The translations under genes and the position numbers were made by a program. The notes beneath the pieces were generated by a model. The model was not told the DNA's origin and searched no databases. It saw only the letters and a program-made list of their open reading frames with translations. From Methanogenium sp. S4BF (GTDB lineage Archaea; Halobacteriota; Methanomicrobia; Methanomicrobiales; Methanomicrobiaceae): DNA of 64,000 bases. This document shows positions 14,997 to 21,059 of the stretch, piece after piece (positions within the stretch are counted from its first letter, which is position 1; the number at the start of each line of letters is the position of its first letter). The stretch spans positions 1,547,940-1,611,939 of the forward strand of contig NZ_CP091277.1 in assembly GCF_029633965.1 (NCBI RefSeq). Direction: 5' to 3'.

Positions 14997-15806
14997 CTAA
15001 TCCGCCGTGATCAGCGTGCCGGGGTTTTCACCTTTAAGGGCACGCTCGAGGGTGCCGCGCTCATGGCCGTTTATGATACGGATTTCCCGGATATTTTTTG
15101 CATGCATCAGGAGCTCAACGACCTTGCGCTCCAGCACGAGATCGTCCATATCAAGGCTGAGCAGTTCTCCTGCTGTGATCTCTTTGATGAGGTCTGCCTC
15201 AGGATTGACAAACGGATTTTCCGTGAAGAGACCGTCCACATTCTTCAGCAGGGTGCAGGTCTTTGCCCCGATGACCTCTGCTGCGAGGAAGGCACCGGTA
15301 TCAGTCCGGTGCTGCGGGATGTAGGATCCGGGCGAGGGTTCTTCGAAGTAGCTGTATGGCGGTGTGCCTGCCATCACCGGCAGAAGGCCCATCCGTACCA
15401 GCATGGGAATGTCCATGATGTCATCCGCCGGGATGCGGATGCCCCCGTCTTCTGAGAGCAGGGCCGCAACCATCTTTGCATTCTGTGAACTCACGTCACC
15501 GGAGAGTTCTGCGAGAATTCCGGTCGGCATACCGAGGTCGATACCCACGTCCATCACATGACGGACACGGACACCGCCGCCCACCACGACAAGCATCTCA
15601 TACTGTTCTTTTAAGAGACGGATTTCATCAAGGAGGGGCAAAAGCACCGTAGACCCAAAGTCCACCGTCCCGTGCCCGCCGATTTTAACCACGTTCAGAT
15701 TGGGTGCAATGCGTACGGTCCGGTCCTGATGCTCTCCATACTCCAGAGATCTGCGTACCAGGGTCTCCCCCTGGAATTTGTTTTTAATCTCCCGGCGTGT
15801 TTTCAT
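14997..15806 (-). CDS. Molybdenum-storage-protein-like amino acid kinase family protein
   Basis: A 269-residue amino-acid-kinase-fold protein. The N-terminal nucleotide-binding pattern KIGGHGTVDFGS (about residues 40-51), the glycine loop VVVGGGVRVRHVMDVG (about 73-88) and IPQHRTDTGAFLAAE (about 160-174) are present. The combination VRVRHVMDVGIDLGMPTG plus HRTD.GAFL resembles the MosA/MosB subunits of molybdenum storage protein more than true UMP kinase. If so, it would bind ATP and store molybdate or tungstate as oxide clusters. A MOT1-type transporter gene 1.2 kb away supports this. UMP kinase remains the alternative. Confidence 0.72.
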   Translation of the reverse strand: MKTRREIKNKFQGETLVRRSLEYGEHQDRTVRIAPNLNVVKIGGHGTVDFGSTVLLPLLDEIRLLKEQYEMLVVVGGGVRVRHVMDVGIDLGMPTGILAELSGDVSSQNAKMVAALLSEDGGIRIPADDIMDIPMLVRMGLLPVMAGTPPYSYFEEPSPGSYIPQHRTDTGAFLAAEVIGAKTCTLLKNVDGLFTENPFVNPEADLIKEITAGELLSLDMDDLVLERKVVELLMHAKNIREIRIINGHERGTLERALKGENPGTLITAD

Positions 15807-15825
15807 CAAATCACTGACCAGAGAT

Positions 15826-15835
15826 ATATTTTATA
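15826..15835 (-). promoter_or_regulatory. TATA box for the molybdenum-storage-like gene
   Basis: On the minus strand TATAAAATAT sits 20-29 nt before the ATG at 15806, so the transcript would be leaderless or nearly so. No strong Shine-Dalgarno site is seen, in agreement. Confidence 0.6.
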
Positions 15836-15925
15836 CCAGTAAAGGTTTCCTGTTTTCGGTTACCCTGGCAGGTCATGTCCGGCACACCCGAAAACACCCC
15901 AACCCCGTTGCCGTAGTACAAACAG

Positions 15926-15935
15926 ATATATACAT
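15926..15935 (+). promoter_or_regulatory. TATA box for the tandem small-protein genes
   Basis: ATATATACAT lies about 70 nt upstream of the first small-protein start at 16003. Transcription would begin near 15957, inside or beside the palindrome at 15954-15969, so a repressor bound there could block initiation. Confidence 0.5.
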
Positions 15936-15953
15936 CCAACGGGCATGTATGCA

Positions 15954-15969
15954 TATATCAGCTGATATA
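15954..15969. promoter_or_regulatory. 16-bp perfect palindrome, candidate operator
   Basis: TATATCAGCTGATATA reads identically on both strands. It lies between the divergent molybdenum-storage-like gene and the tandem small-protein genes, about 20-35 nt downstream of the plus-strand TATA box. Position and symmetry suit a dimeric regulator. An 8-bp palindrome TATGCATA lies just upstream (15948-15955). Confidence 0.5.
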
Positions 15970-16002
15970 GCACCTGCATAGCAGCTGGAGGATGTGAGCA
16001 AA

Positions 16003-16221
16003 ATGAAGATCTATGTAAGACCACGCACAAAAGTCGGCGAAGGCGTCCACCAGCCGCAGTTCAAGGTCGTCGCCACCACCGGCGATAGAACGGAGCAGAT
16101 CAAATTCCAGTCAAAGCACCTCCGCAAATCCGAGCTTGAGCAGATTGCAGAGGATACCGGTGCTACACTGGTCTACCTGAAGCCGGCCGGCGGCACTGGT
16201 GCCGGCGGTAAGAAGGACTAA
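16003..16221 (+). CDS. Small basic protein A, first of two tandem paralogues (unknown)
   Basis: A 72-residue protein beginning MKIYVRPRTKVGEGVHQP and sharing this opening with the gene 53 nt downstream. The two align along their length: KVVA.TG, a lysine-rich centre, LRKSELEQIAEDTGA against FRKKELETIAADVGA, a hydrophobic strand ending in P, and a Gly/Lys-rich tail. The ATG at 16003 is chosen over the GTG at 15994 because it matches the paralogue and has GGAGG about 11 nt upstream. No family is recognised. The predicted beta-beta-helix-beta pattern and basic charge allow nucleic acid or ligand binding, but this is only suggestive. Confidence 0.7.
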   Translation: MKIYVRPRTKVGEGVHQPQFKVVATTGDRTEQIKFQSKHLRKSELEQIAEDTGATLVYLKPAGGTGAGGKKD

Positions 16222-16274
16222 ATACTATACCACCGATTTTGGGTTGTCCGCAAAGCGGAAAAGAGGGGAACAGC

Positions 16275-16490
16275 ATGAAAATATACGTACGTCCGCGACA
16301 GAAAGTCGGAGAGGGGGCGCATCAGCCAATGTTCAAGGTTGTTGCTGTCACCGGAAAGGGTGAGGAGAAACTGAAAATGGAAGCAGGCCATTTCCGGAAA
16401 AAGGAGCTGGAGACGATTGCCGCCGATGTCGGTGCAGAGATCGTGATGCTCGAACCGTCCGCGACCGAATCAGGAAAAGGCAAAACCTAA
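16275..16490 (+). CDS. Small basic protein B, second of two tandem paralogues (unknown)
   Basis: A 71-residue protein, MKIYVRPRQKVGEGAHQP at the N-terminus, clearly a duplicate of the previous gene, with divergence in the centre (KGEEKLKMEAGHFRKKELE). A strong GAGGGG site lies about 6 nt upstream of the ATG at 16275. The pair probably forms one transcript starting near 15957 and ending at the T-run at 16500. Keeping two distinct copies suggests a heteromer or specialised roles. Function unknown; placed between Mo-storage-like and Mo-transport genes. Confidence 0.7.
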   Translation: MKIYVRPRQKVGEGAHQPMFKVVAVTGKGEEKLKMEAGHFRKKELETIAADVGAEIVMLEPSATESGKGKT

Positions 16491-16499
16491 CCACCAGCC

Positions 16500-16506
16500 T
16501 TTTTTT
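16500..16506 (+). terminator. T-run terminator after the tandem small genes
   Basis: A run of seven T (16500-16506), followed by a further pyrimidine-rich stretch, starts about 10 nt after the second stop. This is the typical oligo-T archaeal termination signal. Confidence 0.5.
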
Positions 16507-16534
16507 CCTTTCCTGCCCAATACCGCATACTTCT

Positions 16535-16897
16535 ATGGCATCACTTGACATTCCTGCGCTCTTTCATGCAGCAGCTGAGATCCTTATCCGGGAAGACCAG
16601 CGCATTTCAGTTGAATATTCCGCAGGAGAAGCGAGAATACGGTTTCCCACCACCCGCCGCCTTGCCCGGTATCTTGATGTGCCCCATTACTATGTCCTCC
16701 CTGTGTTCAGCATGATGGAGGAGAAGCATCTGGTCAGACGGGAAGAACGGGTCGGGATATCCACAACAGGTGCGGGCACCATGCTCTTTCTGGACGTCAT
16801 CCGGGGTTCAATGCCCGATGAGGCAGCCGCTCTTTTAGGGGAGGGGACCATTGCCGCACTTGCAGCGCTGCATTCTTCTGCGGCATCTGCGCCATAA
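16535..16897 (+). CDS. Winged-helix-like protein, possible transcription regulator
   Basis: A 120-residue soluble protein. The central part (about residues 35-80) has the pattern of a winged helix-turn-helix: FPTTRRLARYLDVPHYYVL, then a helix ending in MEEKHLVRREERVGISTTGAG, where a turn-rich wing would follow. A hydrophobic helical C-terminus could dimerise. No exact family is recognised. It lies between the tandem small genes and a MOT1-type transporter gene, so it is a candidate for the factor that reads the palindrome at 15954, but this is inference from position. Confidence 0.55.
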   Translation: MASLDIPALFHAAAEILIREDQRISVEYSAGEARIRFPTTRRLARYLDVPHYYVLPVFSMMEEKHLVRREERVGISTTGAGTMLFLDVIRGSMPDEAAALLGEGTIAALAALHSSAASAP

Positions 16898-17002
16898 ATT
16901 CAATAGTACTCCCGGACACCGGAAAGAGAGAGGAATAGCAATACCTATCGTCAGAAATAATGATACTATCCTGATTTGACCGGAATAAACCGGAGAGATG
17001 AC

Positions 17003-18187
17003 ATGGACCTGCTGACAGAACATCCATATAACAAAGAGGACCTGCCGAAACCCGCATTTACCCTGCGGGAGGCTGCCGGATCGGTGGGTGATTTCGGAAC
17101 GATTCTGCCGATTGTCTTCGGGGTGGCCCTCGTGTCAGACATGCACATCAGCCATATTCTCTTTTTTTTCGCGGTCTGGTTCATCATTTCCGGGTATTAC
17201 TACCGCCTGCCGGTACCCATCGAGCCCATGAAGGCCATCGGGGCAGTGGTAATAGCCGGTTCACTGACGCAGGATATCATTGCTGCATCCGGCATCATCG
17301 TCGGGATCTTCTTTCTTCTGGCAGGTCTGATGCGATGGATGGAGACGCTGAAGCGCTACATCCCGCAGAATGTCATCCGGGGCGTTCAGGCGGGCCTTGC
17401 ACTCCTGCTCCTCCGTTCAGCCTTTGGATTTGCGACGGGGGACATCATTCCGTTTGCCGTGGCAACCCTTGTCATCGGACTCTTCTGGGTCGGTGCGAAG
17501 TATACCCGGCTGCCGGATATCTCCGCCCTTATCGTGGTCTTCGGAGGTGTGGGAGCAGGGATACTCATCTCCGGGATGCCGGAGTTTGCCCTTCCTGCCC
17601 TTCCAACCCTCTTTCTGCCCTCACCGGGGGTGTTTGTCCCGGCATTCACCGACCTTGTCCTCCCGCAGGTGCCGCTCACCATCACCAATGCCATTCTGGC
17701 CACGTCTCTTCTGACCATTGACCTCTTCCGCCACGAAATAAAACCGGACCGCCTCTCTGCAACCATCGGGGTGATGAACCTGGTCTCGGTTCCCTTCGGC
17801 GGATTTCCCATGTGCCACGGCGCAGGTGGCATGGCGGGACAGTACCGCTTCGGCGCACGCACCGGCGGGGCAAATATCATCGCAGGCATCATCCTGCTCG
17901 CCTTTGCCATTTTCTTCGCCTCAGCAGGCGTGCTCTCCATCATTCCCACCGGCATATTCGGTGCCCTCCTGCTGTTTGTGGCAATCGAGCTGGGGATTCA
18001 TGCGACCAAAACCGACTCTCCCGTGGTGACCGGCGTCATGGCAGTGCTCTCCCTCGCAGGCACCATCACGATTGCATTCATTGTCGGCATGGTTCTTGCA
18101 TGGGGACGAATCGGGTACCGGAAACGCAAAGGGCGCAAAGCAGGTGCCGGAGAGACGAATACTCCACAAGAACAATCCGAAGAATAA
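17003..18187 (+). CDS. MOT1-type molybdate/sulfate transporter
   Basis: A 394-residue integral membrane protein with about 10-11 hydrophobic helices and a charged C-terminal tail. Two signature stretches of the MOT1 family are visible: LPVPIEPMKAIGAVVIAG (about residues 71-88) and GGFPMCHGAGGMAGQYRFG (about 267-285). The N-terminal AAGSVGDFGTILPI also fits. Members carry molybdate into cells; tungstate or sulfate are alternatives. The ATG at 17003 follows GGAGAG by about 6 nt. The nearby molybdenum-storage-like gene supports an oxyanion role; methanogens need Mo or W for formylmethanofuran and formate dehydrogenases. Confidence 0.87.
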   Translation: MDLLTEHPYNKEDLPKPAFTLREAAGSVGDFGTILPIVFGVALVSDMHISHILFFFAVWFIISGYYYRLPVPIEPMKAIGAVVIAGSLTQDIIAASGIIVGIFFLLAGLMRWMETLKRYIPQNVIRGVQAGLALLLLRSAFGFATGDIIPFAVATLVIGLFWVGAKYTRLPDISALIVVFGGVGAGILISGMPEFALPALPTLFLPSPGVFVPAFTDLVLPQVPLTITNAILATSLLTIDLFRHEIKPDRLSATIGVMNLVSVPFGGFPMCHGAGGMAGQYRFGARTGGANIIAGIILLAFAIFFASAGVLSIIPTGIFGALLLFVAIELGIHATKTDSPVVTGVMAVLSLAGTITIAFIVGMVLAWGRIGYRKRKGRKAGAGETNTPQEQSEE

Positions 18188-20323: not shown

Positions 20324-20539
20324 ATGAAACTTGATATCGTTCTTGAAAAGGAAGAAGACGGTGGGTACTCCGCCCACTGTCCGGCCCTCAAGGGATGCCA
20401 TTCTCAGGGCAGGACACGGGAAGAAGCGCTGGAAAATATGCAGGAAGCTATAGAACTGTATCTTGAAGTCGCCCATGATCTCGCCTCCCGTCAGGTAACA
20501 TCACAGCCGGGTTCAATCCTCGTTGATCTCGCAGTATGA
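20324..20539 (+). CDS. hicB: HicB-type antitoxin
   Basis: A 71-residue protein with the HicB partial RNase-H fold pattern: an N-terminal strand MKLDIVLEKEEDGGYSAHCP, then ALKGCHSQGRTREEALENMQEAI and a helix toward the C-terminus. It neutralises HicA. No added DNA-binding domain is seen. Its stop overlaps the hicA start (ATGA), giving the order antitoxin then toxin. The pair sits between hisD and a truncated hisD copy, so it looks inserted. Confidence 0.88.
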   Translation: MKLDIVLEKEEDGGYSAHCPALKGCHSQGRTREEALENMQEAIELYLEVAHDLASRQVTSQPGSILVDLAV

Positions 20540-20769
20540 ATACAAAGCGCCTTCTTCCGATATCCGGAAAAGATATGGTTCGGGTTTTTTCAAAAATCGG
20601 ATTTCAGGTTGAACGCAAACGTGGCAGTCATATCATCATGAGCCGTGGCGATGAAATCCTTGTCATCCCGGATCACAATCCAATATCAAAAGGGACTGAA
20701 CGTGAACTCATCAAAGACGCGGGCCTTACAGTAGAAGCGTTCAACGAACTGCTCAAAGGAAAGAAGTAA
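20536..20769 (+). CDS. hicA: HicA-type mRNA interferase toxin
   Basis: A 77-residue protein with the HicA double-stranded-RNA-binding-like fold signature: SGKDMVRVFSKIGFQVERKR, then GSHIIM with the conserved catalytic histidine, IPDHNPISKGTERELIKDAG and a short C-terminal helix. It would cleave mRNA when freed from HicB. All expected residues are present, so it should be active. Translation is coupled to hicB by the 4-nt overlap. Confidence 0.88.
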   Translation: MNTKRLLPISGKDMVRVFSKIGFQVERKRGSHIIMSRGDEILVIPDHNPISKGTERELIKDAGLTVEAFNELLKGKK

Positions 20770-20810
20770 CGGGAACTTAAAGAGAGCTCAATCGTCCATC
20801 CCGGATATGA

Positions 20811-21059
20811 CAGGTGGCGGACAGCTTTGCCATTCTTTCAAAAATCGAGAATGCAGGCTCCATCTTCGCCGGCCCCTTCACCACAGCAGGATATGCCCGG
20901 ATGTACTCAGGGATCATTGTGGACCCCTTCTGCAAGACGTCGACCATCCAGATGATTGACCGGGAAGGGCTGGAAGCGATCGGCGATATTGTCGAGACGC
21001 TCGCCGACGCGGAAGGACTGCATGCACATGCTGAGTCGGTCAGGGTTTGGCGAAAATAA
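20811..21059 (+). pseudogene. Truncated, internally deleted copy of the hisD 3' end
   Basis: This 249-nt piece matches hisD 19864-20160 in the same frame and ends at a matching TAA. Relative to hisD it lacks 48 nt, in frame, that encode the segment around GDYASGTNHVLP with the zinc-ligand aspartate, so it could not be active even if joined to the rest. No start signal is seen before it. Divergence from hisD is mostly synonymous, suggesting an origin from a related hisD allele or an old duplication. It closes the hicBA insertion on the right. Confidence 0.9.

Follow-up and report, generated by a model that had tools for sequence, protein, structure and literature searches.

The molybdenum storage protein MoSto of Azotobacter vinelandii (subunits MosA and MosB; PDB 2OGX, 4F6T, 6GU5) is an (αβ)3 heterohexamer assembled from two paralogous subunit genes, and it has so far been seen as peculiar to certain nitrogen fixers. 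In MosA, Glu129 binds molybdate clusters (PMC5066560) and histidine is also among the cluster-binding residues (PMC6294228); a 2019 study regarded MoSto as having no known homologs (PMC6448029). Here we describe a five-gene locus of the methanogen Methanogenium sp. S4BF that encodes a MosA/MosB-family protein next to small proteins without a Pfam or NCBIfam family, and that we read as a probable tungstate/molybdate homeostasis module. The locus occupies positions 14997-18187 of a 64-kb window (the whole stretch of DNA that was analysed, 64,000 nucleotides) from a single-contig genome of 2.51 Mb whose closest named relatives belong to Methanogenium. All evidence on the module is computational, and the genome samples hold one genome per species and are mutually related.

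The gene at 14997-15806 (minus strand, 269 amino acids from its ATG) encodes an amino-acid-kinase-fold protein that carries PF00696 (Pfam) and is 86% identical to its M. marinum counterpart. Over its full length it matches Azotobacter MosB (E = 6.9e-51) and MosA (E = 1.2e-46), compared with 2.4e-10 for the best uridine monophosphate (UMP) kinase, and it is 35-37% identical to MosA/MosB but only 26% identical to the PyrH of its own genome. Core residues including K41, G78, R82 and N109 are common to the kinase-fold protein, MosA and MosB, as is the loop plan GTPPY...IPxHRTDTG. In a tree of 36 sequences the clade of the kinase-fold protein groups with MosA and MosB and is split from methanogen PyrH with support of 100/100. 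The organisms of both MoSto and the methanogen protein also have a high demand for molybdenum or tungsten.

The other four genes lie on the plus strand, across a divergent control region of about 195 bp (15807-16002). They encode a 72-amino-acid (72-aa) protein (16003-16221), its 71-aa tandem paralog (16275-16490), a 120-aa winged-helix-type DNA-binding protein that is probably a local regulator (16535-16897) and a 394-aa MOT1-type oxyanion transporter (17003-18187). The two small proteins are 58% identical and occur as paired copies in five Methanogenium genomes. The transporter scores 188.5 bits against PF16983 (cut-off 30), with the MFS_MOT1 domain matched in two stretches in Pfam, and family membership makes it a candidate carrier of molybdate or tungstate. 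All five genes are conserved as proteins in relatives and are thus real genes. A preliminary description of the window, made from its letters, had listed these five genes, the tandem paralogy, the divergent storage-like gene, the winged-helix-like protein and the MOT1-type transporter, and in each of these respects our results agree with it.

The neighbours also travel together. Among 40 relatives the kinase gene is present in 26, all of which have the small gene (26/26), with the winged-helix gene in 22/26 and MOT1 in 25/26. We then scored the kinase and the 72-aa family in each of 393 genomes of the phylum: 67 have both genes, three have the 72-aa gene only, none has the kinase only and 323 have neither. 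The three small-only genomes are 70 to 85% complete; in G081 the small gene stands at the end of a contig, in G067 a stop breaks it, and in G058 it sits beside a frame-broken regulator. Two kinases occur with two small genes in G030, G035, G195, G257, G272, G314 and G401, and in the G030/G035 group each duplicated kinase copy has its own divergent 72-aa gene. The kinase pairs of this group are not placed as MosA plus MosB in the tree. Outside the phylum survey the pair was found in Geobacter, Desulfuromonas, Geomonas, Anaeromyxobacter and one Asgard archaeon. Whole-genome searches of nine further genomes, all reached via their kinase locus, recovered both genes in 9/9. Geobacter-type loci yielded no winged-helix homolog; in these the small gene follows the kinase gene in the same orientation after about 100 bp.

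Several individual genomes depart from the one-to-one pattern. In a genome of the same genus (G004; locus L047, 4759-4946) all that is left of the kinase gene is its final 37 codons, which immediately adjoin an intact MOT1 gene; the kinase, small genes and winged-helix gene appear to have been lost together in nature while the importer was kept. Some Geobacter-type genomes (L067, G419) have two 72-aa genes per one kinase gene, one of them distant from the kinase, and in L067 the distant copy stands beside transporter and moeA genes.

A nitrogenase-accessory role can be rejected as a general explanation. Across the 393 genomes the kinase is present in 8/50 holders of nifD and in 59/343 others (Fisher p = 1.0), so that nifD occurs in kinase holders (8/67) at its background rate; the window genome itself has nifD. 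The archaeal kinase is thus not linked to nitrogenase, unlike MoSto.

The 72-aa proteins have no Pfam or NCBIfam match. Nine residues (I3, R6, R8, K10, P18, H39, R41, E44 and A54) are invariant in the family across archaea and bacteria, and this set is strongly basic. The AlphaFold model has a predicted β-β-β-α-β order at a predicted local distance difference test score (pLDDT) of 76. Its best structural neighbours are mostly NDUFS4-type complex I subunits, weakly (best E = 0.013, Z of 3 to 4), and there is no significant sequence match between the family and NDUFS4-type proteins; as these scores fall within the range expected of common arrangements, we claim no kinship. The Mop/Tub/molbindin proteins (TOBE domain, about 70 aa; PMC11980592) resemble the 72-aa proteins in size and in their proposed cytoplasmic role with tungstate or molybdate, but the predicted fold differs and no match to the TOBE domain (PF03459) was found in 33 family members at E 0.5, on which ground we reject a molbindin/TOBE identity. 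On two Azospirillum plasmids that carry canonical mosA and mosB, no 72-aa gene was found anywhere in the record, and the absence of the gene from canonical mosAB loci is based on these two plasmids only. Plasmid records gave one weak match to the gene, in Rhizobium (E = 3e-3).

The company that the module keeps in other genomes points to molybdenum and tungsten. In other methanogens its neighbours include WtpA (406.8 bits, cut-off 355), ModA (79 bits, cut-off 62.5), a permease and an ATPase of the Wtp type, TrmO and a fused MobB-MoaE. Among the neighbours at Geobacter-type loci are moeA, moaC, genes for tup-type transporters and one gene of the MogA/MoaB type. This context, together with the operator copies before tupA-type genes described below, supports the proposal of the preliminary description that the small proteins and the regulator take part in metal-oxyanion handling. 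Other genes recur nearby. The tRNA methyltransferase TrmO (L028 4618-5157 and homologs) is found in the methanogen molybdenum/tungsten transporter cluster at nine loci. A family with an IDDTD motif (L030 14540-15235; L096 4154-4933), with a distant resemblance to TiaS and to methanogenesis marker protein 11 at scores below their cut-offs, occurs near the module at 8/31 archaeal and 8/23 bacterial loci. In several relatives (L027, L028, L035 and L036) the methyl-coenzyme M reductase genes mcrB and mcrD lie a few genes from the module.

We aligned the divergent gap of five Methanogenium genomes and found a block of invariant positions that includes the palindrome TATATCAGCTGATATA (15954-15969). 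The perfect palindrome is the only exact match in the window, and with up to two mismatches there are three matches against 0.57 expected. Together with three CANNTG boxes (15959-15964, 15971-15976 and 15982-15987) it forms a candidate operator array at 15954-15987. Towards the kinase gene a conserved element, TTTATACCAGTAAAGGTTTCCTGTTTTC (15829-15857), has many invariant columns in the same five genomes and is tentatively a promoter of the kinase gene or a half-operator. Throughout the order, CANNTG boxes recur in this divergent gap at a spacing of about 12 bp, their consensus being ACCANNTGGTATANCANNTG, and CANNTGNTATANCA occurs in 47/58 distinct divergent intergenic regions, compared with a mean of 0.09 in dinucleotide shuffles that ignore kinship. 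A genome-wide search for the consensus with one mismatch allowed found it in 31/60 genomes of the order (27/38 known kinase holders and 0/14 known non-holders), nearly always at the divergent promoter of the module; the copy in the window is more than one base off the order consensus and was picked up by a related pattern. Three genomes (G408, G191 and G172) have an additional operator copy immediately before a TupA-type gene, which connects the operator with the uptake of tungstate. In G191 and G172 this gene has the tungstate-binding TupA as its best and only NCBIfam match, and for G408, in which the gene is cut by the contig end, the assignment was made by eye.

The 120-aa protein is modelled by AlphaFold as a winged helix with a pLDDT of 90. 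Its best fold matches are DtxR/IdeR/MntR DNA-binding domains (E = 0.014; Z = 8.4 over 76 residues, root-mean-square deviation 2.3), with other winged-helix families following closely. Searches of Pfam and NCBIfam gave no match to the ModE helix-turn-helix or to TOBE. It therefore resembles ModE/TunR-type regulators in being a winged helix tied to molybdenum or tungsten genes but differs from them in having no TOBE or ModE match.

Taken together, these observations suggest that the locus is a tungstate/molybdate homeostasis module with a MosA/MosB-family store, a 72-aa partner and a winged-helix regulator, a reading to which we assign a probability of roughly two in three. The handling of tungstate or molybdate is the most likely function, since genes for molybdenum and tungsten transport and for cofactor synthesis recur nearby in two domains of life and the operator also stands before tupA-type genes. 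The kinase-fold protein most likely serves as a store, its closest relatives of characterised function being MosA and MosB. TupA and WtpA suggest tungsten as the favoured metal. In such a module the oxyanion would enter via the MOT1-type carrier, and in relatives also via Wtp, Mod or Tup ATP-binding cassette transporters. The MosA/MosB-family protein, probably a homo-oligomer, would take it up into an oligomeric cage in an ATP-dependent manner and release it for cofactor synthesis. The basic 72-aa protein would be an obligate partner of the cage, most likely a bound accessory subunit or a protein that hands over the oxyanion, and the winged-helix protein would recognise the palindromic CANNTG array of the divergent promoter and tune the module to metal status. 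Formylmethanofuran and formate dehydrogenases are established users of molybdenum or tungsten in hydrogenotrophic methanogens. The released metal would most likely serve these two enzymes, which, given the lack of a nifD association, presumably set the demand.

Several observations weigh against this reading. Besides Glu129, which is P126 in the aligned window protein, we take His140 and His156 to be cluster-ligand positions of MosA (both histidines are present in the 2OGX_A sequence), and these are L136 and S152; other members of the clade have K/H/A, G and L/I/M at the sites of Glu129, His156 and His140, respectively. With these ligands absent, the cluster chemistry of MoSto is not simply transferable to the window protein. 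The window genome has a single kinase gene where MoSto has two, and no Wtp, Mod or Tup genes adjoin its locus. The TupA-type matches score 174 and 199 bits against an NCBIfam equivalog cut-off of 400, the shuffle and Fisher statistics ignore shared ancestry, and the winged-helix protein is the likely reader of the operator array as judged from its position only. The preliminary description had likened the kinase-fold protein to MosA/MosB, loops included; the full-length homology stands, whereas for the loops the likeness is partial, the cluster-ligating residues of MosA being replaced. The protein is thus best placed within the MosA/MosB family without being called MoSto, since the MosA ligands are not conserved and there is one gene rather than two.

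Alternatively, the kinase-fold protein might be an enzyme or chaperone that uses ATP to act on the oxyanion, for instance by activating molybdate or tungstate or by delivering it to cofactor synthesis, and the 72-aa protein might be a subunit that regulates it; the locus would then still be related to molybdenum or tungsten but nothing would be stored. The missing MosA ligands and the single gene in place of an α-β pair would fit this explanation, as would the presence, close to the module in several genomes, of MobB-MoaE, MoeA, MoaC and MogA-type genes, and an obligate small partner, which the canonical MosAB of the two Azospirillum plasmids is without. However, homology to MosA/MosB extends over the full length with the same loop plan, and MosB is likewise without the MosA cluster ligands, so we consider an enzyme or chaperone unlikely, though the most serious competitor of a store. 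Far less probable is a second nucleotide or small-molecule kinase of the UMP kinase type with metal genes as coincidental neighbours. PyrH does belong to the same amino-acid-kinase superfamily, MosB homologs are labelled uridine kinase in databases and the protein weakly matches the NCBIfam model pyrH_arch, but the score of 58.3 bits is far under the cut-off of 158, a separate true PyrH is encoded elsewhere in the genome, and the molybdenum/tungsten context recurs in both archaea and bacteria. Two outcomes would have refuted the preliminary description, a best structural and phylogenetic match to true UMP kinase and neighbours not conserved together, and neither was observed: the protein groups with MosA/MosB by sequence and in the tree, and the neighbours travel together. 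We reject the identity of the protein as a UMP kinase.

A further question is whose partner the 72-aa protein is. In archaea its gene and the winged-helix gene are neighbours on one strand, and its conserved basic residues could contact DNA, as might be expected if it were a co-regulator acting with the winged-helix protein. At Geobacter-type loci, however, it follows the kinase gene with no winged-helix homolog found, and small genes double in step with kinase genes, which makes a co-regulator improbable. Because the pair persists in bacteria that lack the regulator, the 72-aa protein is best seen as a partner of the kinase-fold protein.

A more specific proposal can be made, which we offer tentatively and rate as slightly less probable than its negation. 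The 72-aa proteins might form an unrecognised family whose members are required subunits of a second lineage within the MosA/MosB family, one with a single kinase gene. Conserved basic residues (K2, R6, R8, K10, H39 and R41) would there touch the oxyanion or the cluster, or act as a gate of the cage, in place of the MosA ligands, and the lineage might be a tungsten or molybdenum store of methanogens and Geobacter-type bacteria, which need not be nitrogen fixers. We found no paper on a molybdenum storage protein in methanogens or Geobacter among the open-access papers searched. Our results indicate that the MosA/MosB family occurs widely among methanogens and metal-reducing bacteria and is, in archaea, uncoupled from nitrogenase, and they add a small partner protein that has no name yet, as well as a defined candidate operator. 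The way in which methanogens keep reserves of tungsten or molybdenum for their CO2-reducing enzymes thereby becomes directly testable, and the 72-aa protein offers a handle on a possible part of a metal-oxide cage.

An Rfam search of the 64-kb window returned only one tRNA, with no molybdenum-cofactor riboswitch at the gathering threshold. At 20324-21059 of the window a HicB/HicA-type pair (PF15919 and PF07927) lies between hisD and a second, partial hisD C-terminus, and looks as if it had been inserted with duplication of the end of hisD.

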